A DNA stretch of 39,773 nucleotides from a virus: positions 1 to 39,773 of the IMG/VR virus record IMGVR_UViG_3300024346_000185; one strand, given 5' to 3'. Below the pieces are notes generated by a model. The model was given only the letters and a program-made list of their open reading frames with translations, made no database searches and was not told the DNA's origin. Below are positions 4,577 through 35,641 of this stretch, in pieces. Numbering within the stretch: the stretch's first letter is position 1; each line of letters begins with the position of its first letter. A program made the position numbers and the translations under genes.

Positions 4577-4579
4577 AAA

Positions 4580-5098: not shown

Positions 5099-5100
5099 GT

Positions 5101-7842
5101 TTAGAATTTAGGTAAAGATAGTCGTTTTAAGTAAGGTTCCCAAATTTTAAGGATACTTTTTTTCTCCTTTTCGGTATAACCTCTAGAATCAAACCAGTCG
5201 TTGATTACATCAATAAACGGTCTTCTTTGTTTTTTAGCAGAAAAATACATTCCCTGAAGCATTGGTTCAATTTCTGCTCTCATTACAGGGTATTTAGCGT
5301 CTGGGATTTCCCCTGCTCTTATTTTCGCTCTACGGGCTTGATCAGAATTTCTTTTTTTAGATCCTAATAGATTAGGTCCTTGTTGAGTTAGGTGTTCAAT
5401 TTCATGCCTCATAAAATCTTTAAGGTCGAATGAGATTTTTTGCCAGAGCCGGGGTAGTTGCTGAGTATCAATAACGAATTCAGCTTCGATGTGCGGATCT
5501 ATAGCTTTCAAATCATTCCCTGCATTAGCTCCTCCTTCTACTGAGTATATGTCTTGGTCGACAAATTTAGCGTCAGCGAATAGTTCGAATTCAAGACCAG
5601 TTTTTTCGTCCACTACATACCTTTGAAAGTTACTAGTACTCTCACCAGCATCAAAATCTTTTTTCCAATAATCAAATATCATTCCTGATAAGCTATTAGA
5701 TAAACTGTCGTACTTTCCTTCTGCCATCACTGGTTTGTCATTGTGATCTCTAGGAGCAAATCCTTTGATGTATTTAACTCCGTTATCTCCTCTTAAACCA
5801 TTCTCCCATGATCGGAACGCCATGTTGCCTCTCTCATAAGCTTCTCTTTCAAGAGCTTTTAAGAAATCATCTTCGTTTACGTTTGTGGTATGAATATTAC
5901 CGAGTCTACCTTCTAGGTTTTGTACGTGGTGAATCATCTCATGAGCAAATGATCTTAAGATGTCTTTAGGATGTCTGCCGGTAGTATATAGTACTATTAA
6001 TTTTTGATTAGGATCGTAATGTGCGGTTTTCCCTAATGGATTCTTTGCATTGTCTTCATCCTCTACGAATTCAATTTCAGGTGCAGGATCAATGGTTAAA
6101 CCTTGATTGTACATGTATTTGGTAAGGTCTTTAATATAGGGAGCTAGTCCTTCTTGAACCGGAGTATATTCAGACCCGTAAGGAGATGATTTTCCGGTAT
6201 TTTTTAGATCAGATGGTTCTAGATTCTCATTCTTAGAATGAAAATTAATAAACCAATTTGCCTGACGCTTATCATGCGGGGTAGCATTTTCTCTATTCTT
6301 AAACTTTCTAGCTTTTTCAATAGTTACATCACCGCCGTAAGCTTTTGTAATCTTTGCTTTAAAAGTTCCCGGTGCTCCGTCGTTTGTTCTTTTGCCTTTA
6401 TAGGCTTCTTGTACAGGTTCTCTTTTAGGCATATTTAATGCATCTAAGTATTCTGATGGTGATACACCGAAAGGTAAGAATGGCTTGATTGCTGCTATGT
6501 CTTGAACTGCAATTGCTTTTCTTAAATCAGTTGCACTAGCATCACCAATGTTAGCTTCCGGGAAGTTATTAATGGTAACGTTTGGAAGCTTGGTAATACC
6601 TTTAAACCGTTCTGCATCATCTTTTCCAAAAATTGCAATATACTCTTGTTCAGGATTATTTTCGAATTCTTTATATGCTTTTAATACCGGTGAGGGTAAA
6701 TCGCTAATTTCAAAAGTAACGTTATCCGGTACTAAATTTTTCTTTTTATATAAATCAAAAATAGCCATCGCTTCTTGAGCACTAACGGCTGCTTCATCAT
6801 TCTTAGCAACAGGATTAGGTCCGATAATAACTCTAACCTGAGCTGCCATCTTAGCAGCTGCTTGAATACGAGCTAAGTGATCCTTATGAGGTGGTTTAAA
6901 TTTACCTGGGAAGATTGCAATTGTTCCTTCTCCCTGTTCTAATAACAAAGGTTTAATTAAATCAATAGCAAATGATCCGTATTTTTCCTGTAAAGCTGCA
7001 ATAGTATCTAGAGCTTGCTGCTTTCCGTCTCCTTTAGGAGTTCCCTGTTCAGCAGAACCTACTTTAATGGAAGTTTTAAAATATCCTTTAACTCTATTTT
7101 TTGATCTAGGATTTTTAAATTTTTTAATTTTGTCTACAAACTGTTCAAAAGTTCCGTCTACATTAAAGTCTTTTAGTAATCTTTTGACATCGTTCCAGTC
7201 ACTTGATTCCCAAATAATATTACTATCTAACTGTCTATAATTTTCATCTAGAGTAACAATCTTCAAGGATAATCCTGAAGTATCTAAATGGAATTCGTAT
7301 TCTTGATCGGGTCCTAATGAAGGAATATCTTTAATTCCCATTCTCTTAAATACCTGCTCAGGATCTTCTTCCAGTAATGGAGTCTTAACTAGACCTAAGA
7401 TTAACCCTTGAAGTTCAGCAGGATAGTCTAAAACAACTTTCTTGAAGTCACCCTCTGATTCAGATACTGCGATAATGTTATCGATTTGAACAAATTCACC
7501 GGGCATGCCTGATATCGGGTATAGGTTCGAAATGATTTCACCATGGTTAATTGCTTTTTTTCCTTTATGTCTCTCTGAATTTAAATAAGGAAGTTCTTTG
7601 TCGTTTAAACCTTCAAAGTAATCGACAATCATTTTCTTAACTTCTTTTTTATCTTTGTCTGTCTCAATAGAAACAACTAAGTCAATATCACCGAAGTCCT
7701 GTTTAACAGGTTGATTATATGATCCAGAAATTTTAGCTGATTTAAATCCTGGAATTTTTGATAAGATGTTGCTAATAAAATCCTTTACTGTTTGATCAAC
7801 AGCTGATCTTGGGATTCTAGTACCTCCTGCTGCGCCTGACAT
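5101..7842 (-). CDS. multidomain protein: nucleotidyltransferase, nucleotidylyltransferase and two HExxH metalloprotease-like domains
   Basis: 913 residues. Residues 30-140: pol-beta-type nucleotidyltransferase signature, GS at 40-41 and GDIDLVV at 51-57. Residues 305-470: NMN/PanC-like nucleotidylyltransferase, FPGKFKPPHKDHL with H319 and H322, then SATDLRKAI (436-444), which matches the ISSTxxR position. Residues 485-545: ARKFKNRENATPHDKRQANW, which I recall as a recurrent phage signature. Residues 605-680: zinc-protease motif HEMIHH (634-639) with a downstream EREAYERG. Residues 780-860: second HExxH, RHEIEHLTQ. Such fusions suggest a large virion-associated protein that could be cleaved or injected. 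Its start overlaps the stop of the upstream nucleotidyltransferase gene by one base. Domain calls are fairly firm; substrates are unknown. Confidence 0.8.
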   Translation of the reverse strand: MSGAAGGTRIPRSAVDQTVKDFISNILSKIPGFKSAKISGSYNQPVKQDFGDIDLVVSIETDKDKKEVKKMIVDYFEGLNDKELPYLNSERHKGKKAINHGEIISNLYPISGMPGEFVQIDNIIAVSESEGDFKKVVLDYPAELQGLILGLVKTPLLEEDPEQVFKRMGIKDIPSLGPDQEYEFHLDTSGLSLKIVTLDENYRQLDSNIIWESSDWNDVKRLLKDFNVDGTFEQFVDKIKKFKNPRSKNRVKGYFKTSIKVGSAEQGTPKGDGKQQALDTIAALQEKYGSFAIDLIKPLLLEQGEGTIAIFPGKFKPPHKDHLARIQAAAKMAAQVRVIIGPNPVAKNDEAAVSAQEAMAIFDLYKKKNLVPDNVTFEISDLPSPVLKAYKEFENNPEQEYIAIFGKDDAERFKGITKLPNVTINNFPEANIGDASATDLRKAIAVQDIAAIKPFLPFGVSPSEYLDALNMPKREPVQEAYKGKRTNDGAPGTFKAKITKAYGGDVTIEKARKFKNRENATPHDKRQANWFINFHSKNENLEPSDLKNTGKSSPYGSEYTPVQEGLAPYIKDLTKYMYNQGLTIDPAPEIEFVEDEDNAKNPLGKTAHYDPNQKLIVLYTTGRHPKDILRSFAHEMIHHVQNLEGRLGNIHTTNVNEDDFLKALEREAYERGNMAFRSWENGLRGDNGVKYIKGFAPRDHNDKPVMAEGKYDSLSNSLSGMIFDYWKKDFDAGESTSNFQRYVVDEKTGLEFELFADAKFVDQDIYSVEGGANAGNDLKAIDPHIEAEFVIDTQQLPRLWQKISFDLKDFMRHEIEHLTQQGPNLLGSKKRNSDQARRAKIRAGEIPDAKYPVMRAEIEPMLQGMYFSAKKQRRPFIDVINDWFDSRGYTEKEKKSILKIWEPYLKRLSLPKF

Positions 7843-8816
7843 TATTTCTTATATTTGTAAAGGTTAGATGATTGTGGTAAGTATTTACCTTTAAGGTCAA
7901 ATTCGTCTTGATTCTGAATCCAGAAATCTTGTAAGTCTTCCGGAATGTCTGCTGTAGGTCCTGTAAAGTCTAAGATCTTCAAATAAATCTTCATAAGGTT
8001 TTTATATTCTTCAGGAGGTAGTTGCTTCTTTAAAAAATCTGATAGTTCAAAATAATCGTTAATGATATCTCTAGTTAATTCAGGTTCAAAACCGTAGAGC
8101 TTATTTAATAAAGCTAAAGCTTCTGTTGGATTGGTTGCTTCTACTTCTCTAGTTTCTTTATCTAGTACTCCTGATTCATGTTTAAACATTTTACCTTTGT
8201 TGGTAAACATCGCAAGCATTAATTGAGTTCTATGTAATCCTTTTACAACTCCTTTATAAATGTTAGAGTAGTAGCTGAATTTTAACCATTCAGGATTTCC
8301 TACGTTAATATCAACTTGAGCAGTATCAGGTAATTTTTCTCCTGTTTCATTGTATTGAGGGTAAGCGCAGAAGATTGAACCTCCACCGGCTCCTTTCGGA
8401 TCTGCTTCCATTTCCTCAGAACTCTTATTAATCTTATCAGCAATCATTTCCAACATTGCTCTTAACATTGATTGAGCTTCTGTTGCAGTTCTTGATTTCT
8501 TTCTAATTACTTCGAACCTCTGTTGAAATTCTTGAGGATCTAATCCCCAACCTTCTAAATCAGGTTTACCATCTTTAATTAGATTCTCTGCTGGGTATGA
8601 TAAATCGATATCACCTGAGATATCTTTTTTACCTGCTGAACCTAACTTTTCAAATGCTTTAAAAGTAGATGCTTTTTTAGGAAATATTCTACCTAGTGAT
8701 TCAGAAAACTTTTCTAAAGTAGATTCAATATTTTCCTTTCTGATAGAAGCAGTAGTTCCAAAGACGTTACCGCCTTCAGATAAAACTTGCCTAAGAAGGG
8801 AGGTGAGCTTGATCAT
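7842..8816 (-). CDS. pol-beta-superfamily nucleotidyltransferase-like protein with N-terminal capsid-targeting-like tag
   Basis: 324 residues. The N-terminus MIKLTSLLRQVLSEGG is an amphipathic helix ending in L-S-E/G, matching the (L/I)xE cleavage rule of T4 prohead protease. EKLGSAGKKDISGDIDLSYP (56-75) carries the G-S and D-x-D metal-binding motif of nucleotidyltransferases; VDINVG further on could supply the third acidic residue. The C-terminal half is helical. ATG 8816 is 4 nt after a TATTTATA element and the stop is TAATG-coupled to the 913-residue gene, which has its own nucleotidyltransferase domain. A packaged enzyme modifying host RNA, nucleotides or protein is an inference. Confidence 0.75.
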   Translation of the reverse strand: MIKLTSLLRQVLSEGGNVFGTTASIRKENIESTLEKFSESLGRIFPKKASTFKAFEKLGSAGKKDISGDIDLSYPAENLIKDGKPDLEGWGLDPQEFQQRFEVIRKKSRTATEAQSMLRAMLEMIADKINKSSEEMEADPKGAGGGSIFCAYPQYNETGEKLPDTAQVDINVGNPEWLKFSYYSNIYKGVVKGLHRTQLMLAMFTNKGKMFKHESGVLDKETREVEATNPTEALALLNKLYGFEPELTRDIINDYFELSDFLKKQLPPEEYKNLMKIYLKILDFTGPTADIPEDLQDFWIQNQDEFDLKGKYLPQSSNLYKYKK

Positions 8817-8820
8817 ATGT

Positions 8821-8828
8821 TATAAATA
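8821..8828 (-). promoter_or_regulatory. late-type promoter element TATTTATA
   Basis: Coding-strand TATTTATA, 4 nt upstream of the ATG at 8816. It lies between the nucleotidyltransferase gene and the end of the nuclease gene. Confidence 0.55.
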
Positions 8829-9620
8829 TCACCCTTTCAGTTTGATGCTAGTGGGTAATATTTCTGTGATAGGTTTTACGTCCGGTCTTTTAATTTTATA
8901 GATTTCGTAAAGGTGTTTAAAGATTCTCTTGTTTTCCTCAAAAGATTCAGCTGGTTCTTTGATTTCCCATCCCTTACCCTGCATCTTACCCTCTTTCTTA
9001 CTTTCTCCTCTTGTCATAGCTTTCAACCAGATAATACCGCGTCTTTGAATAGGCTTCTCAAAACATTCGTTCCAGCCCTGTTCGTAGCAAGCAAGCTGTA
9101 AGTCAAACGAATCATGTAAGTAGTTTGAAGTTTTAATATCTAGTAACCATAATTCACCTTCAATCTCAACTACTAAATCTAAAGTACCTGCAACCTCTAA
9201 TTCATCAGAGAAAATATGAACTTCTGATTCAACAAGGGTGGGGGTATAGGTTTCCCAGAAATTAACAAACTTTAGGATCATCTGCCATACTTTTAAACTG
9301 TACTTGGTAGAACCCCATTCGTTTATCCAAGTTACTTCTTCTCCTTTTAAGTATGCTTCGATAGCAGTATGGACTTGAGTTCCTTCTTCACCTGCTCTAC
9401 GCATGATGACATCAGCATTAGATCCTACTTCTTTTAACCAGGTTTCAAAGAATTTATCTTTTGGATAATAAGATAATACCGTAGTTACTGAAGGGTAAAA
9501 TAATCCTTCTTTCCTTTGATAGAATCTAGAATCTTCAAGGGTGATTTGACGAGCTGTTGAATCCGGATGTATTAATCTCTTAACTCGTTTGCTGTTTACG
9601 TTTTCGTTTTTTTCTATCAT
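8829..9620 (-). CDS. PD-(D/E)XK exonuclease (RecB/Cas4-like)
   Basis: 263 residues. All motifs of the RecB-type nuclease fold are visible: GTQVHTAIEAY (80-90), E131 in LVESEVHIF, the catalytic AGTLDLVVEIEG (144-155) with D148, then LLDIKTSNY (159-167) giving D161-I-K163, and the QLACYEQGW motif (175-183). It overlaps the primase gene upstream by 4 nt (ATGA), so the two form a replication or recombination operon from the promoter at 10546-10579. Likely role: 5' or 3' exonuclease processing phage or host DNA ends. Confidence 0.85.
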   Translation of the reverse strand: MIEKNENVNSKRVKRLIHPDSTARQITLEDSRFYQRKEGLFYPSVTTVLSYYPKDKFFETWLKEVGSNADVIMRRAGEEGTQVHTAIEAYLKGEEVTWINEWGSTKYSLKVWQMILKFVNFWETYTPTLVESEVHIFSDELEVAGTLDLVVEIEGELWLLDIKTSNYLHDSFDLQLACYEQGWNECFEKPIQRRGIIWLKAMTRGESKKEGKMQGKGWEIKEPAESFEENKRIFKHLYEIYKIKRPDVKPITEILPTSIKLKG

Positions 9621-10543
9621 AATTGGAATTTTTTCTCCATTAGCGTTCTGAATGATAATGGAGTGCTTTTATGTAATAATTTAGTAAAGTTGGTGAAACC
9701 TAGTTCGGATGGATCTTTTTGATCTAAGTCTACTAGGAACACCTCTTTTCCATGGTTTAGTAAGGTCTCACAATAATTAATTGCCTGCTTTAATGCGTCA
9801 TTATCTAATGCAATAAAAACCTGTTTAACATTAGAAGATACAATCTTCTTCATAAGCTTTTCAGGTAGAATCTTTCCTAGTAATGGAATTGCATTACGTT
9901 TGATTGCCATTGCATCAAAAGTACCCTCACACAACACAATTGGACTATCCCAGTTAATGGTCAATTCGAATGGAACAATATTTTTGGATGCTTGAGGGTT
10001 TTTATATTTTATATCACCTGGACCGAAGTTACGGCCTACAAAATAATTTAGAGTACCATTCTCATCGTAACTTGGAATGATAATCATATCCTTATAGCGG
10101 CCAGACTCGCAGTAACCTAAATTATATCTTTTAATATCAGTTGAATTGATTCCTCTTTCTTTCAAATAACGTAATGCTTGACGTACAGTAACTTCTGAAG
10201 TACTAACATCATGTAGGGGTTTATATTCTTTAGGTAGGGCTAGAGCTTCTACTTTAACTCCATGCTCTTCTTGAAAGGAGATCTTAACGTAGTTCTTAAG
10301 TTCTTGTAGTTTGTGGTCAGGAGCAGATACAGCCTTAAAAAGACTAACGAGTTTCTTTCCTTTCTTGTTACACACCCAGCAATGCCAGTGGTGTATGCCT
10401 TCCTCGTTTTCTTTAAAGTTAATCTCTAATTTTGGCTTGTAGTGATTGCAGAAAGGACAATTATAGGAGAAGTTATCTCCTGATGTCGGCTTACCTGCCC
10501 CGATTACACTATTTACTAGACTTACTAGTAGATGATTGACCAT
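9617..10543 (-). CDS. DNA primase (DnaG/T4 gp61-like)
   Basis: 308 residues. N-terminal zinc ribbon: Cys29 and Cys32 in NCPFC, Cys55 and Cys58 in HCWVC. Middle RNA-polymerase-like segment GYCESGRYKDMIIIPSYD. TOPRIM domain: VLCEGTFDAMAIKRN (203-217) with E206, and FIALDNDAL (243-251) with D247-x-D249. This is the ordinary architecture of a phage primase lacking a fused helicase; no helicase is in the window. A CTTG-N20-TATATTTAAT promoter lies 2 nt before ATG 10543, so the mRNA is probably nearly leaderless. The stop overlaps the nuclease start. Confidence 0.92.
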   Translation of the reverse strand: MVNHLLVSLVNSVIGAGKPTSGDNFSYNCPFCNHYKPKLEINFKENEEGIHHWHCWVCNKKGKKLVSLFKAVSAPDHKLQELKNYVKISFQEEHGVKVEALALPKEYKPLHDVSTSEVTVRQALRYLKERGINSTDIKRYNLGYCESGRYKDMIIIPSYDENGTLNYFVGRNFGPGDIKYKNPQASKNIVPFELTINWDSPIVLCEGTFDAMAIKRNAIPLLGKILPEKLMKKIVSSNVKQVFIALDNDALKQAINYCETLLNHGKEVFLVDLDQKDPSELGFTNFTKLLHKSTPLSFRTLMEKKFQL

Positions 10544-10545
10544 TA

Positions 10546-10579
10546 ATTAAATATAACACTTTAATCGGGTAAGTGCAAG
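10546..10579 (-). promoter_or_regulatory. early-type promoter (CTTG-N20-TATATTTAAT) for primase
   Basis: Box CTTG 10579-10576, exactly 20 nt, then TATATTTAAT 10555-10546, then ATG at 10543. Same geometry as the accessory-region promoters. The -7 element is close to the Bacteroidota TAnnTTTG. Confidence 0.6.
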
Positions 10580-11010
10580 TCTTTTCGGAAAATTCTGGAC
10601 ATAATGTTGTCGTTGTATGAATTTGTTTCAAGTACGTCATATTTACATTGGTAAGCGATTTCATAATAAGTTAATTGTTTTCTAGAGAAACACAACTTTA
10701 AAATCTCTCTTTTAAATTTATCTTCGCCAATCTCTTTAACTTCGGCAAGTAGAGGCTTACATGAACCCCAATATTCTCTCCAATTAGATTCCTTACTAAC
10801 TTTCTTTTTAGTAGGCTTTCTCCCTGGGCCGGACTGTTCCGAAATTTCTTTCTTTGTTAATTTTTTAGTCAGAGTGTTAGTAAATATTTTTCTACCAATA
10901 TAAAACTTACCAGTCTCGATGTTTGTTATTAAATAAACAAATCCAACTGCTCTGTCTTCAAATTGATATTCCTGTGTAACTTCTTTGTTTTCGTAAAACC
11001 AATTAGGCAT
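10561..11010 (-). CDS. GIY-YIG-like endonuclease domain protein
   Basis: 149 residues. AVGFVYLITNIETGKFYIGR (21-40) carries the two short strands of the GIY-YIG fold (VYL and YIG) with the downstream Arg. A basic Lys/Arg-rich insert (about 50-75) follows, then an NWREYWGSCKPL segment and a helical tail in which a catalytic Glu is expected (YYEIAYQCKYDV). It may be a homing-type or repair endonuclease. It lies between the baseplate genes and the primase, with no promoter recognised upstream. Confidence 0.75.
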   Translation of the reverse strand: MPNWFYENKEVTQEYQFEDRAVGFVYLITNIETGKFYIGRKIFTNTLTKKLTKKEISEQSGPGRKPTKKKVSKESNWREYWGSCKPLLAEVKEIGEDKFKREILKLCFSRKQLTYYEIAYQCKYDVLETNSYNDNIMSRIFRKDLHLPD

Positions 11011-11015
11011 AAATT

Positions 11016-11987
11016 TTATCTATCGATATTAATTAAGATTGTTGTGTCTGTTACATTACTACTCGGTAAAGGTTTTGCTAACTTACCAACTGCGATTAAA
11101 TCTTGATTTTCATTATATAACCCTACTGTTGTAACGTACGGGCTAAACAAAGATCCAGTTGCAAAATCATAAATATTTCCGGTTGATCCTGAAATTAAGG
11201 ATGGATTTAGTGTAAGGTTGTATTCTGAGGAATTAAAAGTGCATTTGTATTGAGTTTCAAATATTGTAAATGAGCTACTAAATGAGCAGGTTACACTTGG
11301 GGATGTTATTATATTTTCAATAAATGGATTACTAGCTGCACCGTATAGACTTGTTCCATATACTGCACTACCGTAATACGGACCTCCTGCTTGGTTATCT
11401 TTAGTTAGGATCACCAATCCATGTTGATATATTATATTACCGCACCATTCACCATCTAAAGAAAAATAAAGATTACCATCACCATCATCTGTAATACTTC
11501 CTGATTGAGCGGAAATAATAAAGGAGCCTGGTTGAATTATATCTCCGTAGAGTTTAGTAGGTATTGAAATTACTCCGATAATTGCATTAGAAGCAGTCGG
11601 AAAATACCTTTCATAAGCTAGAGTTGTTTCTAAATAATTTTCGAATCTACCTGCAGAGCTTGTTGGTCCTACTAATACATCTCCAGTTGAGTCGAGTCCC
11701 GGGATTATAAATGGAACCGATACTGGTGAACCATAACTTGAACTTAAATAGTTAGAATAGTAAAGCTCTCTTACAGAATCGTAAATAAGTCTCTTATATT
11801 CAGTATTAACCTGTCCGGTTGTACTTTCATTTAGACTAAATAATCCTTCTATATTTTCTCCTAAAAATCTATCAATACCAACAGTAGATCCGGTGAGTTC
11901 AGCCGCTCCAGTAAACCGGAAGGCTTTATTCACTTCAAATGGAGTGACTATAATGTCGGATGCTAACAGTTGTTTGAACGCAGTCAT
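11016..11987 (-). CDS. tail/virion structural protein (paralogue of the next gene upstream)
   Basis: 323 residues, rich in Ser, Thr, Gly, Tyr and Asn with beta-sheet-like alternation, typical of phage fibre or baseplate decoration proteins. The C-terminal 70 residues (NPSLISGSTG, then VTTVGLYNENQDLIAVGKLA, then KPL) align clearly with the C-terminus of the adjacent 333-residue protein, pointing to tandem duplication. It is the last gene of the structural block. Exact position in the tail is unknown. Confidence 0.75.
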   Translation of the reverse strand: MTAFKQLLASDIIVTPFEVNKAFRFTGAAELTGSTVGIDRFLGENIEGLFSLNESTTGQVNTEYKRLIYDSVRELYYSNYLSSSYGSPVSVPFIIPGLDSTGDVLVGPTSSAGRFENYLETTLAYERYFPTASNAIIGVISIPTKLYGDIIQPGSFIISAQSGSITDDGDGNLYFSLDGEWCGNIIYQHGLVILTKDNQAGGPYYGSAVYGTSLYGAASNPFIENIITSPSVTCSFSSSFTIFETQYKCTFNSSEYNLTLNPSLISGSTGNIYDFATGSLFSPYVTTVGLYNENQDLIAVGKLAKPLPSSNVTDTTILINIDR

Positions 11988-11992
11988 TCATT

Positions 11993-12994
11993 TTAAAAGT
12001 CAAGCTTAACTCTCAATAAAGCTTCTTTTGTGAAGTCTTTAGTCAGTGGTTTTGATAATTTAGCTACGGCGAGTAGGTCGTTAGTATCGTTGTAGAATCC
12101 TACAGTTGTCATATAGGTCTGTGGAGAGTTAATGAATGTACTGTAGATAACATCTCCTGTTGATCCTGAAATAAATGAGGGGTTTTCAGAATAGTTAAAT
12201 TCACTGTTTCTAGCTCTAACGAATACAAAATCAGACGTTACTGTTTCTTCGCTATTAACTTGAAAAGATGCAGCTCCTGAAACAGCAGTGAATAATCTTG
12301 CGATATTGAAGCCATCTGAATCAGAAGATCTTGAAGGGTTTAGGTTTATTGATTGTGATAGTGCTAATGGGTTAAGGATGATAGTTGCAATATCTGGTAA
12401 GAATAATCCGTAAGATCCAGAGCTTAAAGAGTAACCGTTGGCGTTGAGGCTGGTATTAGCAACTCCATTTGAACCGGAGATAATTTGGTAGACTCTACCG
12501 CAATCTAAATAAGTATCTGTTGATACCATTCCAGAGTTGTCGGTCAATTTTAGTGTCTGTATTCCAGATCCTGTTAGTGTTAAATTAAAAGTACCTTTAA
12601 GTAGGTGCTCTTTATATCTCGCTCTATCAACAGAGATTACCCAGAAATCAGATGCTGTTACTGCTCCAAAAATAAATTGAGCATTTTCGTCTCCGTAAAC
12701 TAAATTACGGTACTGACCGTAAACAGTTCTTGTTGGTGATACACCGGGTACTGAATCGTTAAAGTTAGCACTTCCGGATCCTGCTTTATTTCCATAGGCA
12801 ATTGCAAATTGAACTGCTGTACTAGTTTCTGTTGAAGCGGTTTGGTATACATTCTTATAGTAGCTATCGTTAGTGCTTGTTGTTGACGATGTGAAGAATG
12901 TACTTAGTACTGGTGTATTGGTAGACCAAGCAGTTGCTGTTACCGAGTCAATGCTTACGAGGAAATCTTCGGGATCTAATCTTTTAAATGACAT
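11993..12994 (-). CDS. tail/virion structural protein (paralogue of the downstream gene)
   Basis: 333 residues, beta-rich, high Ser/Thr/Gly/Asn. N-terminus MSFKRLDPEDFLVSIDSVTA; the neighbour has ASDIIVTPFEVNKAF at the equivalent position. C-terminal signature NPSFISGSTG, then MTTVGFYNDTNDLLAVAKLS, then KPL, is shared with the downstream gene. The N-terminal halves differ more, as expected if the conserved C-terminus binds the particle and the rest varies. Five nt separate the two genes. Confidence 0.75.
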   Translation of the reverse strand: MSFKRLDPEDFLVSIDSVTATAWSTNTPVLSTFFTSSTTSTNDSYYKNVYQTASTETSTAVQFAIAYGNKAGSGSANFNDSVPGVSPTRTVYGQYRNLVYGDENAQFIFGAVTASDFWVISVDRARYKEHLLKGTFNLTLTGSGIQTLKLTDNSGMVSTDTYLDCGRVYQIISGSNGVANTSLNANGYSLSSGSYGLFLPDIATIILNPLALSQSINLNPSRSSDSDGFNIARLFTAVSGAASFQVNSEETVTSDFVFVRARNSEFNYSENPSFISGSTGDVIYSTFINSPQTYMTTVGFYNDTNDLLAVAKLSKPLTKDFTKEALLRVKLDF

Positions 12995-30381: not shown

Positions 30382-31011
30382 TTAATAAATAATTGATTCA
30401 CCGGCATAAAAATCTTTCCCAAAATATTCGACTGCCTTGACGGCAGTCTCAAAGTCAACCTCAAAGAATTCCCGGGCATGACCTTGATCGGAGTCTCTAC
30501 GAAACTCTTGAAGGTGTCTATGAACCAGGTTTTCAACCTTATAGTCATTAGTGACCGGGAGAGCAAACCGTAAGACCCATTCGGACACAGTACCGGCCGA
30601 ATTGATACCGTTGATCCTTGTCTCCGGATTTACCGCCTTACCGACCTTGCATAAGTTAGGATATGCCTCATTGGTCAAGACGTAGACATACTTGCCTGAA
30701 AGTTCTGCTCTTTCTCTGTCTTGTAACTTGAGTTTATCTTTAGCATACAAGAGTATCCAAGTGATTGCGCCGCTATCATCCTTAGACCGTACCTCTATGT
30801 CGGATGCATACTCACACCCTATGAAATCCAAGATTCTATCACAAGGTATCCGAGGATACTTTAAAAGTAAATTCTGAAAGTTATTATAGTATTCAGGGAT
30901 TTTACCAGGTACGTTAGGTACCGTACTTGGGTTCAACATACAGTATATAGTTATATACCCTTGAGCTTCAAGTACTGCTAATTCAAATAGTGATATATGT
31001 TTACGTCTCAT
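30382..31011 (-). CDS. T5orf172/GIY-YIG-superfamily nuclease-like protein
   Basis: 209 residues. Residues 105-200 form a T5orf172 (MUG113) domain: GKYVYVLTNEAYPNLCKVGK, TRINGINSAGTVSEWVLRFA, NLVHRHLQEFRRDSDQGHAR, EFFEV. The N-terminal 100 residues are unrecognised. Homologues are common in phages and viewed as GIY-YIG-fold endonucleases. An early-type promoter drives it with a short leader ending AATAAAGGTTATG. Confidence 0.83.
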   Translation of the reverse strand: MRRKHISLFELAVLEAQGYITIYCMLNPSTVPNVPGKIPEYYNNFQNLLLKYPRIPCDRILDFIGCEYASDIEVRSKDDSGAITWILLYAKDKLKLQDRERAELSGKYVYVLTNEAYPNLCKVGKAVNPETRINGINSAGTVSEWVLRFALPVTNDYKVENLVHRHLQEFRRDSDQGHAREFFEVDFETAVKAVEYFGKDFYAGESIIY

Positions 31012-31024
31012 AACCTTTATTGTA

Positions 31025-31058
31025 CCGTAATATACGAAGATATATTTATATATCCAAC
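31025..31058 (-). promoter_or_regulatory. early-type promoter (GTTG-N20-TATATTACGG)
   Basis: GTTG 31058-31055, 20 nt, TATATTACGG 31034-31025. A 13-nt leader containing AATAAAGGTT precedes ATG 31011. Confidence 0.75.
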
Positions 31059-31099
31059 TATACTACAAAAATTTTCCGGAAAAAAAATTTGAGAATCCG

Positions 31100-31939
31100 T
31101 TAATCTAGGTAATTTTCGTCAATTTGGAAATTGTTAAGACCTTCTTGGAACTCCTTCTGGGTAGGGTTTAACCATAAGAACTCTTTAGTCTTGTTAGGTC
31201 CCATGATAGGCCAATTGACGATATACATCTCCTTACCCATTACCGGGAAAGTCCTCTGACCGTCTGTACCTTTGATAAGAACGCGGCGGGTCTGAGTGGT
31301 AATACTCCTTAATTCATCCTGTAGTTTAGTTAACTGTCTAGATCTAGCATTACGCCCGGCATCTTTTAATTGACTAATAGCTTCAATGACATCCCTAGAT
31401 ACTAACATTGTATAAGCTTTATCTTTAGCCTGAAGACGGAAGTGTTCGGGAAATTTTTCCTTTAACTCATAGTACGGAAAGGCGATTGGTTTCGGACCTC
31501 TCTTCTTACCCGTACCCGTCACTGACTTAGGATTATACTCAAATCCCATTTGAATCTCGGATAGTCTCTTACTTAGAACCTCTTTGACGATCTCTTCGAT
31601 TCCTCTAGGGCCTGCAGATGTATCCGTGGTCTGATGCGGTTCCTCATCTTCAAAGTCATCTTCATACTTAATCCGGATGTCTAGTGCTTCTGCATAGTCC
31701 CAAAGAGTAGCTCCGCCGGAATCACCTCCTAAAAAATCTGTAAGATCATCACCGGTTAAATCCGTTACTTTTCGAATTGTGTCTACCATTTGGTCCCATT
31801 CTAAAGAACCAATTGTGACATAGTCGTGAGAGTAATTATCTAAAGCCTGTACTAACAAAGGATTTAAGGGTGCATTGTAACCTCCCTCATATAAACGGCC
31901 GGATCTTACGTAGGATGTGAAGTCGAAAGTATCTTTCAT
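31100..31939 (-). CDS. virion-associated protein with capsid-targeting-like tag
   Basis: 279 residues. The N-terminus MKDTFDFTSYVRSGRLYEGG is an amphipathic helix ending L-Y-E/GG, consistent with (L/I)xE prohead protease cleavage. The middle is acidic (EDDFEDEEPHQ) with a helical IEEIVKEVLSKRLSEIQ; the C-terminal part is basic (NARSRQLTKLQDELRSITTQ). No enzyme signature. TATTTATA element 7 nt before ATG 31939, so a late protein. Could be injected or part of the prohead core. Confidence 0.68.
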   Translation of the reverse strand: MKDTFDFTSYVRSGRLYEGGYNAPLNPLLVQALDNYSHDYVTIGSLEWDQMVDTIRKVTDLTGDDLTDFLGGDSGGATLWDYAEALDIRIKYEDDFEDEEPHQTTDTSAGPRGIEEIVKEVLSKRLSEIQMGFEYNPKSVTGTGKKRGPKPIAFPYYELKEKFPEHFRLQAKDKAYTMLVSRDVIEAISQLKDAGRNARSRQLTKLQDELRSITTQTRRVLIKGTDGQRTFPVMGKEMYIVNWPIMGPNKTKEFLWLNPTQKEFQEGLNNFQIDENYLD

Positions 31940-31946
31940 AGTCTAA

Positions 31947-31954
31947 TATAAATA
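31947..31954 (-). promoter_or_regulatory. late-type promoter element TATTTATA
   Basis: Coding-strand TATTTATA, 7 nt before ATG 31939. A second copy at 31983-31990 lies in AT-rich sequence. Confidence 0.5.
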
Positions 31955-31990
31955 TGGGCAAGTCTACTACTCTTATATTATATATAAATA

Positions 31991-32241
31991 TATATCCTTA
32001 TAAGTGTAATTTTGCTAAAAAAAATGCATGCAAGTATAGGATGGTAGACCGTAGGATAGTACTATAGTGATATTAAGTACGTTTGTATTGACGTACATGT
32101 ATGTAGGTAGTAGGTACGTACTATGTCATGTCAGTGAACCGTAGCAGTAGTCTAGTCGACCGTAGACCTCATTCAGCAAACCGTAGACACAGAAAGAGCC
32201 GACCGTAGCCGACTCCTCCCATATGAAAAAGAAAAAAGATC
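31991..32241. other. intergenic block with ACCGTAG array
   Basis: No ORF. It holds GTAC/ACGT-rich sequence (32079-32122), the ACCGTAG copies described separately, and ends in a polypurine segment (GAAAAAGAAAAAAGATCTTAG) that also follows the second array near 35.67 kb. Confidence 0.6.
32048..32208 (+). repeat. array A: five ACCGTAG copies
   Basis: Exact ACCGTAG at 32048, 32138, 32159, 32180 and 32202; the last four are spaced 21-22 nt, about two helical turns. Flanks are partly conserved (GTGAACCGTAGCA, GTCGACCGTAGA) and recur in array B on the opposite strand. Looks like a protein-binding array between transcription units. Confidence 0.75.
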
Positions 32242-32343
32242 TTAGATGTTATAGATTGCTATAACGATTACAAGGCCTATAATAGAGGCTCCGAAGAGGT
32301 ATAAACCTCCGATGATTGATTCTTTTATAATGTTTCTTATCAT
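32242..32343 (-). CDS. 33-residue membrane peptide
   Basis: MIRNIIKESIIGGLYLFGAS then IIGLVIVIAIYNI: short amphipathic start and one transmembrane helix. It lies directly downstream of the 74-residue gene (10 nt) and is probably read from the promoter at 32596-32629. Small, so some doubt that it is translated; the clean hydrophobic profile and tight spacing support it. Confidence 0.5.
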   Translation of the reverse strand: MIRNIIKESIIGGLYLFGASIIGLVIVIAIYNI

Positions 32344-32353
32344 AGTTCTGAAG

Positions 32354-32578
32354 TTAGTTTCTATCTTTAAACGTTCCGTGAGCCTCTAGGTAGAATAGAT
32401 CATCAATCGTCTCAACTCCTTGAGCAGTATTATCCATCGGCACTACCGGAGTGTCTGAAGGTAATAGTCTTACTAAGGGATTCGTGAAGGTGATACCAAC
32501 CCTGCCTTCACCTATACCGTTCCGGCGTGCCACTGGCATCAATTCGTCTCCTACCTGTACTCCAAATGTTGTGCTCAT
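32354..32578 (-). CDS. small hypothetical early protein
   Basis: 74 residues (MSTTFGVQVGDELMPVARRN; GVETIDDLFYLEAHGTFKD), beta-rich start and acidic end. Early-type promoter 17 nt before the ATG. No family recognised. Confidence 0.65.
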   Translation of the reverse strand: MSTTFGVQVGDELMPVARRNGIGEGRVGITFTNPLVRLLPSDTPVVPMDNTAQGVETIDDLFYLEAHGTFKDRN

Positions 32579-32595
32579 ATTGTCTTTCTATTATA

Positions 32596-32629
32596 CCTTA
32601 ATGTACGAACTTAGATGCTAGCAGGCAAC
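32596..32629 (-). promoter_or_regulatory. early-type promoter (GTTG-N20-TACATTAAGG)
   Basis: GTTGCC starts at 32629; exactly 20 nt after GTTG comes TACATTAAGG 32605-32596, then a short leader to ATG 32578. Confidence 0.75.
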
Positions 32630-32631
32630 TA

Positions 32632-33123
32632 TTACTTTAACATAAATGCTGAATGTACTCTCTTCTTTAGCTCTCTTGCATCTTTACAATTGCCTCCAAC
32701 TACCTTACCATCCTTCAAAGCAAAGGCATGCCTTGCTACTATCAAGATGTATGTACCGATTGGGTTCAGCTTAACAAAGGTCTTTAAGGTCATCTGCCTC
32801 TCAACTATCTCTCCCCAGTTCTTATATCGAGTGATCAACCTATATGGATTGTTAGGAAATGTCTTACAGGGTTCTCCTAGCTCAACTATCTTCTTACCTA
32901 GTATCTCTGTCTGCTCTTTTAGCTTACGGGATGTAAGCACGGTGCCCTGCTTAGGCTTTCTATTGAAGACCTCTGCAACATATTTATGAGCTACATCATA
33001 GCATGATCCTGTGGCTGCTGCTATTGCTCTAACAACGCAGTCATTAGATTCTGACTGTGCGATAGTTGAATCTGACCAACCGATGATACTGTCTGATTCT
33101 GAGATGTATTCTAGTTTGTTCAT
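32632..33123 (-). CDS. papain/C39-like cysteine protease-fold protein
   Basis: 163 residues from ATG 33123. SESNDCVVRAIAAATGSCYD (24-43) contains the nucleophile Cys29 in the DCVVRA-ATG motif of phage C39-like proteins; GTYILIVARHAFALKDGKVV (123-142) provides His132, with Asn145 downstream as the third residue. An upstream ATG (33144) directly follows the promoter, but 33123 is preferred because its leader AATAAAGGTTATG is identical to the leader of other genes here. Could cleave a host or defence protein; target unknown. Confidence 0.78.
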   Translation of the reverse strand: MNKLEYISESDSIIGWSDSTIAQSESNDCVVRAIAAATGSCYDVAHKYVAEVFNRKPKQGTVLTSRKLKEQTEILGKKIVELGEPCKTFPNNPYRLITRYKNWGEIVERQMTLKTFVKLNPIGTYILIVARHAFALKDGKVVGGNCKDARELKKRVHSAFMLK

Positions 33124-33145
33124 AACCTTTATTGTTTCTTCCATA

Positions 33146-33179
33146 CCTTAATATAATTAAAAGGGAGGGAGTTTCCAAC
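33146..33179 (-). promoter_or_regulatory. early-type promoter embedded in a terminator (GTTG-N20-TATATTAAGG)
   Basis: GTTG 33179-33176, 20 nt, TATATTAAGG 33155-33146. The GTTG spans the loop of the hairpin at 33159-33187. Confidence 0.8.
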
Positions 33180-33187
33180 CCTCCCCC
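33159..33187 (-). terminator. intrinsic terminator fused to the next promoter
   Basis: Minus strand GGGAGGG / CCCTCCC (7 bp), loop of 9 nt, then TTTT. It directly follows the stop at 33197, and its loop contains the -33 GTTG of the downstream promoter. Confidence 0.8.
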
Positions 33188-33196
33188 AAACTTTTT

Positions 33197-33367
33197 TTAA
33201 TCTTCTTCTTCCTCGTCTTCGATTTCCTCACTTGTTTGAGTTATTAACTCATCCAACTCTTCGCTTAAACCTTCAATGCTCCAAGTGTTAACATCATCTT
33301 GATCAAATGCATTCAAATCGTTTTGAAATTGCATAAGTAACTTTATTAATTCTTTTTTCTTTTCCAT
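33197..33367 (-). CDS. small acidic early protein (56 aa)
   Basis: 56 residues from ATG 33367 (MEKKKELIKLLMQFQNDLNA; LDELITQTSEEIEDEEEED). The frame is open to 33412, but that part is the terminator-promoter element, so 33367 is chosen. Helical and acidic. Normal base composition, unlike its upstream neighbours. Function unknown. Confidence 0.65.
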   Translation of the reverse strand: MEKKKELIKLLMQFQNDLNAFDQDDVNTWSIEGLSEELDELITQTSEEIEDEEEED

Positions 33368-33368
33368 A

Positions 33369-33402
33369 CCTAAAGATACGAATAAAGGAGGAGGGAACCA
33401 AC
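33369..33402 (-). promoter_or_regulatory. early-type promoter embedded in a terminator (GTTG-N20-TATCTTTAGG)
   Basis: GTTG 33402-33399 in the hairpin, 20 nt including TTCG, then TATCTTTAGG 33378-33369, ATG at 33367. Confidence 0.78.
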
Positions 33403-33410
33403 CCTCCCCC
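33381..33410 (-). terminator. terminator closing the C-free unit, fused to a promoter
   Basis: Minus strand GGGGGAGGG pairs with CCCTCCTCC (9 bp, one G-U), loop TTGGTT, then TTTATT. The first cytosines after the 1.28-kb C-free run are those of its descending arm (from 33395). Confidence 0.85.
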
Positions 33411-33418
33411 AAACTTTT

Positions 33419-33613
33419 TTACTCTACTACTTCACCATTACTATCATAAATTACACTCCATCCTTCCCATCCCCATTCCAATATAACTTCCACACCATCC
33501 TCCATTACTTCAAAACCAACAATCCTCCCATCATCCAACATACCTCCAATTACTAATTCCACTCCATTCTCAAAAACAACCATACTAACAATTTTCTTTT
33601 TATATATCTTCAT
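33419..33613 (-). CDS. C-free gene 4: 64-residue hypothetical protein
   Basis: 64 residues, with no Ala, His, Pro, Gln, Thr or Cys: MKIYKKKIVSMVVFENGVEL, then EWGWEGWSVIYDSNGEVVE. Alternating Val/Ile/Glu/Gly suggests a small beta sheet with three Trp near the C-terminus. ATG 33613 is 2 nt after a TATATTAAGG element, so the mRNA would be practically leaderless. Ends just before the terminator at 33381-33410. No family recognised. Confidence 0.75.
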   Translation of the reverse strand: MKIYKKKIVSMVVFENGVELVIGGMLDDGRIVGFEVMEDGVEVILEWGWEGWSVIYDSNGEVVE

Positions 33614-33615
33614 AT

Positions 33616-33649
33616 CCTTAATATAATTAAAAAACCTCTAACTTCCAAC
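33616..33649 (-). promoter_or_regulatory. C-free early-type promoter (GTTG-N20-TATATTAAGG)
   Basis: GTTG 33649-33646, 20 nt, TATATTAAGG 33625-33616. Usual GTTGCC and TTCG are GTTGGA and TAAT here, so the promoter itself has no C. Confidence 0.8.
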
Positions 33650-33715
33650 TACTCAAACAAAATAATATAACATTTTCAAACTATTTCATTATATATTATT
33701 TCATCAAATCATTCA

Positions 33716-34156
33716 CTAACTAAACTTTTCAATCATTCTTTTAATTAATTCATTCAAATCAAACTCTCCTTTTAATCCTTCTAAAATTAACTCTCTTTCA
33801 ACTTCCTCATTAATTTTATTTCTACTACTACTATACCCACCATTATAATCTCTCCCCACTTTTATATCAACTCCCCAATCCTTAAACCTCCCCTTCTCCA
33901 CCTCTAAATCCAATAACCCATAACCAAATCCTCCTAACTCCCTATTTTCAAACACCTCCTTTAATTCTTTTAATTTATTCAAATTAACATTCACCTCTAC
34001 CAAACTCTCATTAATTAAATTCTCCAATTTCCTAATCCCCTTCCCCTCCTCACTACTCTCAAACTTCTCAATTAACTTCTCTTTTTTAACTTTACAAATC
34101 TCCTTACTAACTTCTCCAACAACAATCTCTAATTCCTTTTTTCCTAATTTTTTCAT
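33716..34156 (-). CDS. C-free gene 3: 146-residue hypothetical protein
   Basis: 146 residues with no Ala, His, Pro, Gln or Thr; one Cys (TGT). Helical and very charged (MKKLGKKELEIVVGEVSKEI; LVEVNVNLNKLKELKEVFEN), with a Gly/Tyr-rich core (ELGGFGYGLLDLEVEKGRF) and NGGYSSSRNKINEEVERELI, ending in a helix. The SSSR run uses AGT codons only. The spacer of about 100 nt to the next gene is also C-free. It may be a reduced-alphabet homologue of an ordinary small phage protein; none recognised. Confidence 0.78.
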   Translation of the reverse strand: MKKLGKKELEIVVGEVSKEICKVKKEKLIEKFESSEEGKGIRKLENLINESLVEVNVNLNKLKELKEVFENRELGGFGYGLLDLEVEKGRFKDWGVDIKVGRDYNGGYSSSRNKINEEVERELILEGLKGEFDLNELIKRMIEKFS

Positions 34157-34180
34157 ATCTTTTTTCTTTTTTTTTATTTA

Positions 34181-34214
34181 ACTTAATATAATTAAAAAAT
34201 CTCAAACAAACAAC
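34181..34214 (-). promoter_or_regulatory. C-free early-type promoter (GTTG-N20-TATATTAAGT)
   Basis: GTTG 34214-34211, 20 nt, TATATTAAGT 34190-34181, followed by a leader of about 24 nt made almost only of A and G (A-runs then GAAAAAAGAT) before ATG 34156. Confidence 0.8.
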
Positions 34215-34220
34215 TTTTTT

Positions 34221-34496
34221 TTAAATTATTTCAAAAACTCCTTTTTCTAAAACCTCCTCCAAATCAAACCAACCCTCATTACTCTCCCCATCATAAATAA
34301 CATACACCTCATCCTCATCTACTCCTACCTCCCAAATACAATCCTTTTTAATTACCCAATTTACCCTTTCAAATAATTCCTCCTCTAATAATAACCCATC
34401 CTCTAAACTCATCTCATCAACATAACAAACATTCTTCAAACTCCTCAATTTCATTCCCTCTTTCAAATCTTCTAATTTTATAACCTTTTTTTCCAT
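34221..34496 (-). CDS. C-free gene 2: 91-residue hypothetical protein
   Basis: 91 residues from ATG 34496. A TTG start nine codons upstream (34523) would translate the promoter, so it is rejected. No Ala, His, Pro, Gln or Thr; two Cys. MEKKVIKLEDLKEGMKLRSL resembles the opening of a small SH3-like beta-barrel protein; later ERVNWVIKKDCIWEVGVDED and VYVIYDGESNEGWFDLEEVL. Strongly acidic. No family recognised. Confidence 0.77.
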   Translation of the reverse strand: MEKKVIKLEDLKEGMKLRSLKNVCYVDEMSLEDGLLLEEELFERVNWVIKKDCIWEVGVDEDEVYVIYDGESNEGWFDLEEVLEKGVFEII

Positions 34497-34498
34497 AT

Positions 34499-34532
34499 CC
34501 TTAATATAATTAAAATAATTCAATTATCCAAC
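34499..34532 (-). promoter_or_regulatory. C-free early-type promoter (GTTG-N20-TATATTAAGG)
   Basis: GTTG 34532-34529, 20 nt, TATATTAAGG 34508-34499, ATG at 34496. The GTTG lies in the last codons of the upstream gene. Confidence 0.8.
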
Positions 34533-34820
34533 TTTTTCATAAAATTTATACAAATCCCAATAAACTTCTAAATTCATCTCCTCTTCCCTATTCCCTCCTA
34601 ATCTCATATACTCCCATCCTCCTCCATCTATTCTATTCAATTCATTTATTACATCAATAATTAAATCCCTATTATTAGTTTTATTATATACCCTGAATTT
34701 TAATCTTCTCCCATTTAATCTTTTATCATTAAATCTCCTTACCAACCAATCCCATTTCTTATCTCCTCCTAATCCAAAATACAATTCCTTAAATTCATTT
34801 ATTCCCATTTGTTTTTCCAT
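34524..34820 (-). CDS. C-free gene 1: 98-residue hypothetical protein (holds the three remaining C)
   Basis: 98 residues from ATG 34820; the upstream TTG start (34847) would read through the promoter and is rejected. MEKQMGINEFKELYFGLGGD, then KWDWLVRRFNDKRLNGRRLK and GGGWEYMRLGGNREEEMNLE. Contains the only Gln (Q4, CAA), the only Thr (ACT) and the only TTC codon of the unit. Changing C to T in the CAA would create a stop. No Ala, His or Pro. No family recognised. Confidence 0.77.
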   Translation of the reverse strand: MEKQMGINEFKELYFGLGGDKKWDWLVRRFNDKRLNGRRLKFRVYNKTNNRDLIIDVINELNRIDGGGWEYMRLGGNREEEMNLEVYWDLYKFYEKVG

Positions 34821-34822
34821 AT

Positions 34823-34856
34823 CCTTAATATAATTAAAATAATTCAAATAACCAAC
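34823..34856 (-). promoter_or_regulatory. C-free early-type promoter (GTTG-N20-TATATTAAGG)
   Basis: GTTG 34856-34853, 20 nt, TATATTAAGG 34832-34823, ATG at 34820. Nearly identical over about 30 nt to the promoter at 34499-34532. Confidence 0.8.
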
Positions 34857-34906
34857 TTTTTATATAATTATTTTTTTATATAACTCTCCCAACTCCCTCC
34901 CAACAA

Positions 34907-34940
34907 ACCTAATATACGAAATCAGATTCGTATTTCCAAC
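34907..34940 (-). promoter_or_regulatory. outermost promoter of the C-free unit (GTTG-N20-TATATTAGGT)
   Basis: GTTG 34940-34937, 20 nt ending in TTTCG, then TATATTAGGT 34916-34907. The C of TTTCG (34918) is the last C before the C-free tract. Its transcript would have a G-rich, C-free leader of about 85 nt. Confidence 0.78.
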
Positions 34941-34981: not shown

Positions 34982-35015
34982 CTTGCACTGAGAGGAGAAG
35001 GCTCGTATACTAAGG
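34982..35015 (+). promoter_or_regulatory. plus-strand early-type promoter (CTTG-N20-TATACTAAGG)
   Basis: CTTG 34982-34985, exactly 20 nt ending in CTCG, then TATACTAAGG 35006-35015. Same geometry as the minus-strand set, but no ORF follows. Confidence 0.6.
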
Positions 35016-35204
35016 GTGAGTTCTTTGATGGTGTGAGAGTAGTTGAGCCATGCAGTGACCGGTCATGCGGTGCTGCTGGTCACTAAGGCTAGGCTAGCAG
35101 GTCGCTAGCAAGGCCGGCCGGCTGAGGCGGTCAAGCTAAGCAGCCGGCGGTGCTAAGGCCCTCGGCGGTCAAGCTCAAAGGCAGTAAAGCACACTGCAGG
35201 CTTT
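35016..35204 (+). ncRNA. putative GC-rich structured RNA
   Basis: About 190 nt of GC-rich sequence without an ORF, in an otherwise AT-rich phage, directly after a plus-strand promoter. Internal repeats: GGCGGTCAAGCT twice, GCGGTGCT twice, CTAAGGC twice, and many short inverted repeats (GGCCGGCCGG; GCTAG). It ends at a possible hairpin GCAGT-N7-ACTGC (35181-35197) bordered by AAAG and CTTT. Could instead be a DNA-level element. Confidence 0.4.
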
Positions 35205-35456
35205 CTAGTTAAGCCAAACCATCATTGTTCCAGCATCATACCATTCAAAGTACCAGCCATTCTCTTCTACATAATCATTTAGTTTAGGCTGAACTCCAAA
35301 AGTATCCATCCATGTTTCAGAGTAGTAGTTGAATAGGCTTGGATGAGACTCTCCTGAGATCCAAATACCTCCATCAGTAATACCAAACTCTTCTGTTGTT
35401 CCTACTACATGAACTCCTTTTTCTCGGAGTGCTATAATCATTTTGTCTCTTTTCAT
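35205..35456 (-). CDS. small hypothetical early protein (83 aa)
   Basis: 83 residues: MKRDKMIIALREKGVHVVGT, then EEFGITDGGIWISGESHPSL and WYFEWYDAGTMMVWLN. An alpha/beta fold rich in Trp and Tyr, anti-defence-sized but with no recognised family. Early-type promoter with the conserved ACAATAAAGGTTATG leader. Confidence 0.65.
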   Translation of the reverse strand: MKRDKMIIALREKGVHVVGTTEEFGITDGGIWISGESHPSLFNYYSETWMDTFGVQPKLNDYVEENGWYFEWYDAGTMMVWLN

Positions 35457-35507: not shown

Positions 35508-35627
35508 CTACCGGATTATTTTCTCACGTACGGCTACCATGCTACGGTTCACTCTTCTACGGTTGGCTGCCTACGGTCTGCTCTACGGTCGACTCGCTAC
35601 GGCCGGCTCTACGGTCGCCTATACGGT
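35508..35627 (-). repeat. array B: eight or nine ACCGTAG-type copies, 12-15 nt period
   Basis: On the plus strand CTACGGT at 35542, 35557, 35571, 35583 and 35609, variants CTACGGC (35597), ATACGGT (35621), GTACGGC (35528) and CTACCGG (35508). Unit near CTACGGTYGNCT, repeated every 12-15 nt. Opposite in orientation to array A; lies between a terminator and a promoter. Confidence 0.8.
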
Positions 35628-35641
35628 TGACACTACAAACA

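Follow-up and report, generated by a model that had tools for sequence, protein, structure and literature searches.

Bacteriophage T4 modifies the C of its own DNA and possesses C-specific nucleases as well as Alc, a cytosine-sensing terminator. There, as possibly in the case described here, a phage uses cytosine as a mark that decides on transcription or cutting; T4, however, modifies C in DNA, whereas here the sense strand of one unit loses it. In the laboratory, single-protein production relies on ACA-less mRNAs, which survive MazF: messages recoded to lack a C-containing RNase site persist while the rest is cut. These messages are man-made and lack a single trinucleotide, in contrast to natural tracts without any C, UTRs included. 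G-less and C-less transcription cassettes, which are non-coding laboratory reagents, likewise consist of a transcribed stretch without one base and can be transcribed without that nucleotide, but the natural tracts are coding and conserved. A diversity-generating retroelement, characterised by paired template and variable repeats and a reverse transcriptase, would introduce adenine-specific changes, to which neither the affected base (C) nor the fixed, conserved state observed here corresponds.

To our knowledge, no genes have been described that wholly give up one of the four bases. The earlier note on this DNA knew of no described phage element of this kind either, and full-text searches, restricted to open-licence papers, returned none, nor any description of C-free transcription units. 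A natural pressure of the kind in question is exerted by prokaryotic viperins (pVips) and their product ddhCTP, a natural RNA chain terminator active against phages (PMC12926258, citing Bernheim 2021). Such an agent hits RNA synthesis at each C, which a C-free transcript would escape. A pVip is nevertheless the attacker, and escape by omission of a base is undescribed in the papers found.

Composition and layout of the tract

The window, i.e. the whole stretch of DNA analysed (39,773 nt, IMG/VR record IMGVR_UViG_3300024346_000185), belongs to a T4-like myovirus, a distant relative of Flavobacterium phage immuto. It had been noted earlier that its + strand lacks G from 33396 to 34677 and holds only three G up to 34917, between flanks of normal composition. 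A base-by-base recount confirmed this: no G occurs over these 1,282 nt, the three G are at 34678, 34695 and 34811, and the next one is at 34918. Both flanks are ordinary DNA, with 9-36 G per 100 nt. Elsewhere in the window the longest G-free run is 55 nt, and the longest runs free of A, C or T are 35, 47 and 29 nt, respectively. On its coding (-) strand the tract is composed of A 0.38, G 0.29, T 0.33 and C 0.002. Models fitted to the flanks, which allow for the persistence of G-poor contexts seen there, give the G-free run a chance probability of 10^-72 to 10^-105. The claim that chance is negligible is thus borne out, at 10^-72 or less.

Table 1. Features of the C-free unit and its neighbours (window coordinates)
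Feature	Position	Strand	Description
C-free tract, - strand sense	33396..34917	-	1,522 nt with three C, 1,282 nt with none; positions from + strand G
Upstream neighbour gene	35205..35456	-	83 aa, ordinary C content, conserved in relatives
Promoter-like element TTTCGTATATTAGG	34908..34921	-	5' edge of tract; promoter role inferred from sequence
ORF 1	34524..34820	-	98 aa, 3 C (all C of the tract)
ORF 2	34221..34496	-	91 aa, 0 C; no relative found
C-free spacer with repeated leader TTAATTATATTAAG	34157..34220	-	sister spacers 34497-34523 and 33614-33715
ORF 3	33716..34156	-	146 aa, 0 C; family MKKLxKxELxIVV
ORF 4	33419..33613	-	64 aa, 0 C
Terminator-like G/C hairpin GGGGGAGGGTTGGTTCCCTCCTCC / GGGGGAGGGTTGGTTCCCTCC	33386..33411	-	C-free tract stops in hairpin loop
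Downstream neighbour gene	33197..33367	-	56 aa, ordinary C content of 8.8%

Four intact ORFs fill the tract (Table 1), all encoded by the C-free strand. Since every codon for Ala, Pro, His, Gln and Thr holds C, these five amino acids are absent from the three ORFs without C, and the repertoire of the C-free stretch is only 15 amino acids.

As judged from the sequence, the tract extends from a promoter-like site to a terminator stem, the start sites being predicted and not mapped. The last C before the tract lies within the promoter-like element, opposite G 34918, and elements of the TTCGTATATT type are located upstream of other genes in the window phage and its relatives. At the other end, the first C encountered downstream are the paired ones in the 3' arm of the hairpin. 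Positions between genes are occupied by a G/C hairpin in the flanking genes and by A/U-rich sequence in the tract.

Members of the ORF 3 family were found in three other phages (L108, L221 and L235) and each is C-free (0-1 C); the predicted structure of ORF 3 is helical, with low confidence (pTM 0.32). ORF 4 has a homologue in a related phage (L147, 300-494) with 35% identity and 11 C in 195 nt. Relatives carrying the 83-aa upstream neighbour have a 94-aa gene or other genes in place of the tract. Three close relatives (L002-L004), in which the neighbouring protein is 82-83% identical, also carry other genes at this position, so that the unit of the window is an accessory block. A second contig, IMGVR_UViG_3300008996_000085, is 100% identical to window positions 30500-33777 (3,278 nt). 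The identical sequence includes the downstream junction together with the adjoining 382 nt of the tract; this contig was assembled separately, although the independence of the sample is unverified.

Two skewed intergenic stretches lie by the cassette (35000-35180 and 35520-35630), with a GGC/AAGC-rich block and CTACGGT repeats. The repeats also occur in L147 (about 1000-1200) and on the opposite strand of L202 (1400-1510).

Recurrence in phages and bacterial genomes

Pattern searches detected C-free coding tracts in dozens of further phage contigs, with up to 1,890 nt without any C. Using the leader and 60 G-free bases either side as a pattern, we found in a more distant relative (L105) a 435-nt C-free unit with one ORF, which stops at a hairpin. 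Scanning 50 related contigs for C-free runs returned this one and three more, with runs of 444 plus 47 nt (L108), 233 nt (L110) and 151 nt (L109), while only one run, non-coding, was obtained from a further 45 contigs. A generic pattern, in which ATGA precedes stretches of 60, 50 and 50 C-free bases set around GAAGA and AAAGA, yielded 44 contigs (L203-L246), most of them with long C-free tracts: 1,929 nt with one C in L205, 1,487 nt with none in L223, and 1,206 (L233), 1,121 (L216), 1,079 (L211) and 1,024 nt (L227/L244) in others. This pattern favours C-free sequence, so the count provides no unbiased rate; tract lengths and limits are unselected. Three sets of loci are near-duplicates (L206/L242, L212/L218/L240 and L227/L244), and A-rich repeats or ORF-less tracts (L207, L224/L238, L225 and L230) were excluded from the argument. 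As read from their sequences, the carrier contigs harbour T4-like baseplate and clamp-loader genes, several portal types and several terminases, showing that the carriers are diverse. No A- or T-free tracts were found across about 2 Mb of related loci.

The C-free segments encode 115 ORFs on the strand without C and two on the opposite strand. The earlier remark that the ORFs run in the C-free sense therefore holds here and in nearly all other loci, and the question that it raised, whether such runs are always the coding strand, can in essence be answered with yes, bar a few A-rich or purine repeats without ORFs. For most loci the 3' edge of the tract falls in or at a hairpin, the C of the terminators being located in stems, and for several the 5' edge coincides with a -10/start-like site. 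Two tracts are partial (L109 and L110), only the 3' part of a gene being C-free. They provided a lead towards a 3'-anchored process, which was dropped as tracts covering the whole transcript are the rule. Homologues of the L110 gene in L215 and L219 are C-free along their whole length, and the partial tracts may be recombinants. In one contig, a 217-nt G-free stretch (L237:1697-1913) lies immediately upstream of a C-free tract of 1,684 nt; the arrangement looks like that of two divergent C-free transcripts sharing a promoter region.

As under purine loading or GC skew, the coding strands of these phages are already C-poor: the C content of 1,713 ORFs from related phages has its maximum at 15%, and few values extend down to about 5%, below which there is a gap. 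C-free ORFs, however, cluster apart at 0-1.7% C. C-free genes are a separate class and not the tail of a skew. Several protein families recur in C-free form, including the ORF 3 family, a 176-aa family and a winged-helix family, each in four phages, and others. In L227 a C-free winged-helix gene is located next to two C-containing paralogues (25 and 47 C). For the 176-aa family, a protein search allowing all codons gave seven loci, including three new contigs, and the matched stretch had no C in any of the seven. Its predicted fold (pLDDT 73) loosely resembles winged helices, with no PDB match at E <= 0.001. Searches of the C-free proteins against Pfam, PHROGs, NCBIfam and PADLOC gave almost nothing, apart from weak winged-helix matches and one weak kinase match, and tblastn with five query proteins against 50,697 phage records gave no match. 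The proteins themselves thus offer no hint of how the units work. One C-free P-loop protein (L233:11245-11835) shows weak likeness to guanylate/thymidylate kinases.

C-poor genes also occur in the genome of a bacterial isolate. Flavobacteriaceae LSUCC0859 includes an integrative element, roughly 7.5 kb long (L307, - strand, about 4407-12050), with nearly C-free genes for a large serine integrase (1.4% C), a second serine recombinase, an HTH_17 protein, an Stc1/HNH-like protein and a 522-aa protein; a methyltransferase gene and an adjoining gene inside it have ordinary composition. The element could be a phage satellite. In its main tract, CAG holds 14 of the 29 remaining C, and these CAG fall in several reading frames (L282:1900-6173, also L307). 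No universal residual-C motif was found. Another Flavobacteriaceae (L315) carries a truncated C-free homologue of the recombinase.

Other matches of the genome scan were mostly purine repeats, and in Flavobacteriaceae most C-free runs were tandem repeats that hold no ORF. In each of two Bacteroidales genomes a single chromosomal ORF of unknown function is nearly C-free (L339:9947-10561 and L338:8960-9700), with 0.9-1.0% C amid ordinary composition, one of the two lying by macro-domain-like and NUDIX-like genes; among 295 genomes just one other, weak match to such a chromosomal gene was found. In Streptomyces stelliscabiei, a high-GC organism, there are just 93 C in 7 kb (L269:1-7030; G 32%, A 43%) and, it seems, no long ORFs; this may be an artefact or a different phenomenon. 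A repetitive stretch of 6.9 kb in an uncultured Clostridium MAG (L283:749-7691) has 66 C, and its C-poor strand is without long ORFs.

Taken together, phages and a mobile element share a real class of C-free transcription units, undescribed in the open-licence papers searched. If such a unit is defined, from the loci found here, by at least 300 nt of sense strand without C that carries all the ORFs, the tract of the window qualifies.

Selection against C and candidate agents

To compare changes inside and outside the tracts, we counted differences between homologous pairs, not all of which are independent. C was involved in 26 of 1,235 differences inside the tracts versus 2,543 of 6,723 (38%) outside, and in the core phages (L205, L211, L222 and L246) in none of 719. 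C-freeness is thus kept across diverged homologues at other loci; for the window it is supported only through the ORF 3 homologues. The dN/dS of C-free homologues (0.4-1.4) cannot be interpreted, since synonymous exchanges between T and C are hardly open to them. The noncoding part of clean tracts (4,199 nt, of which 1,130 are 3' UTR) matches the coding part (12,427 nt) in C-freeness. As spacers and UTRs are C-free too, a cause at the level of translation was rejected. No other dinucleotide is strongly avoided in the tracts (observed/expected 0.86-1.13). We consider it likely that selection against C in the transcript, and not mutation bias, maintains the C-free units.

On this inference, the tract would be a C-free transcription unit, an operon in which cytosine is lacking between the approximate start site and the terminator stem, and selection would act either on the RNA or on its synthesis. 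Unpaired C seems to be disfavoured down to the last one, pointing to an agent that acts at every C of the RNA with similar force. The C-free message would then be made, or would survive, under conditions in which an agent hits every unpaired C and ordinary messages fail. Such an escape at the transcript level is the reading we lean to, if only slightly, and the agent itself has not been identified. The two partial tracts and the few C-free genes on bacterial chromosomes also weigh against it.

The likeliest single agent might be a poisoned or depleted CTP pool, for instance through the chain terminator ddhCTP made by prokaryotic viperins: with a message that lacks C, RNA polymerase would never have to pick between CTP and the poison. 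This form of the agent is inferred and we put it forward tentatively, ahead of the others by a narrow margin because its agent is known. The transcript of the window requires no CTP before the terminator stem, except for the three C in the first gene. Viperin genes were found in 7 of 397 Flavobacteriaceae; none was found adjacent to a C-free unit among the loci analysed here, and in LSUCC0859 no viperin scored above the cut-off. In viperin loci of Flavobacteriaceae (L350, L351 and L353), genes resembling nucleotide kinases and nucleotidases are found nearby. Under chain termination or CTP starvation, C near the 5' end should be the most costly, so that residual C should prefer the 3' end. They are not enriched there (mean position 0.45), and the three C of the window are near the 5' end, both of which count against the CTP form. 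C-freeness also continues beyond the last stop codon, into sequence in which chain termination would do less harm, and the CAG bias of residual C in the LSUCC0859 element is unexplained by ddhCTP.

A nearly equal candidate, although doubtful in itself, is a C-specific single-strand RNase (a host toxin, a HEPN/CRISPR collateral RNase or the shut-off nuclease of a rival) that cuts every unpaired C and to which the operon would be uncuttable. Action on the whole RNA predicts C-free 3' UTRs and no polarity, as observed, and the C of terminators lie in stems. This form accommodates the position of residual C, the isolate without viperin and the 3' UTRs better than does the CTP form, but no enzyme is known for it: we know of no common bacterial RNase that cuts any C yet no U, and most known ones read several bases, for which total loss of C would be unneeded. 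Residual C are slightly more often paired than random C (0.86 v 0.83, p = 0.018); the effect is however small, arises partly from internal hairpins and is absent in the isolate element (0.75 v 0.83).

Less probable by far is an Alc-like factor, itself putative, of a C-modified T4-type rival or helper phage, halting elongation at unmodified C in DNA so that C-free units of phages or satellites escape. It matches the transcript limits and the C-poor integrative element of the Flavobacteriaceae isolate. Against it, the template strand is full of C, and the spread across very different phages would require a widespread rival.

Avoidance of RNA structure, Rho sites or restriction sites is an unlikely cause, even though a C-free message lacks G-C pairs, C-rich rut sites and G/C palindromes by construction. 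None of these pressures punishes the last isolated C, nor does codon bias, yet C is missing over more than 1,000 nt and from all 719 substitutions of the core set. Restriction-site avoidance was moreover rejected, as 1.5 kb of a far larger genome gives no escape.

We find it very improbable that a modified G in the phage DNA (7-deazaguanine) blocks transcription and that the template strand of the unit is G-free for this reason. QueC is present in 6 of 45 records from the C-free set and its relatives (including G002 and G004) and in none of 45 T4-like controls. These occurrences nonetheless come from only 3-4 independent lineages, the nearest relatives of the window (G002/G004) have no tract, and in the remaining genes of these phages the template strand is rich in G. 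Known 7-deazaguanine systems modify only a fraction of G. The QueC loci are G002:4142-4771, G004:47897-48526, G693, G714, G717 and G729.

Mutation alone seems equally hard to sustain. A cytosine deaminase acting on the non-template strand of one highly transcribed unit and converting every C to T would confine the loss of sense-strand C to the transcribed region. At fourfold sites (third positions of Gly and Val codons), however, T accounts for 414 of 903, compared to 422 expected if C is merely forbidden and 478 under C-to-T pressure (about 4.3 standard errors away), and the excess at these sites in the tracts is of G. In the window, coding-strand T is 0.33, against a T+C of about 0.40 in the neighbours. 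In codon alignments, C of ordinary homologues is replaced by A, G and T at similar frequency (21, 17 and 15 cases at codon position 2; 13, 12 and 11 at position 1). Accordingly, Ala of PDB 3guv is replaced in the LSUCC0859 serine recombinase by S, N, D, R, G, C and M rather than by V. Hypermutation and bisulfite conversion were rejected on the same grounds, T being unraised at fourfold sites and C replaced by all three bases. A sequencing or assembly artefact (bisulfite-treated DNA, chimera), for which no supporting evidence was found, can be set aside in view of the intact ORFs, the promoter-terminator limits, the repeat in a second contig, the conserved homologues and the occurrence in many metagenomes and an isolate genome. 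Simple degradation or artefact, against which the intact frames had first been cited, thus remains unlikely on wider evidence.

Implications for phages and mobile elements

Only C can be missing from a reading frame, since ATG and the stop codons TAA, TAG and TGA need A, G and T. Whether many kinds of phages and mobile elements keep whole operons and their UTRs C-free, with proteins limited to 15 amino acids, and thereby evade an immune or rival agent acting at every C of the RNA is in our opinion evenly balanced; such a counter-defence would consist in leaving out one letter, and C is the only letter for which this can be done. In that case, the small proteins of the operon would act early or in counter-defence. 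That a full-length transcript can be made in the absence of CTP is the key prediction, and one accessible to a test in vitro.

If selection does act on the RNA, a strong and widespread pressure is exerted on C in phage messages, whether its source is a poisoned pool of CTP, an RNase specific for C or an agent still to be discovered. The tracts also supply a set of naturally occurring proteins devoid of Ala, Pro, His, Gln and Thr. Their signature is easily searched in any genome and, if the same reading is true, would mark, independently of homology, genes that must work under attack.
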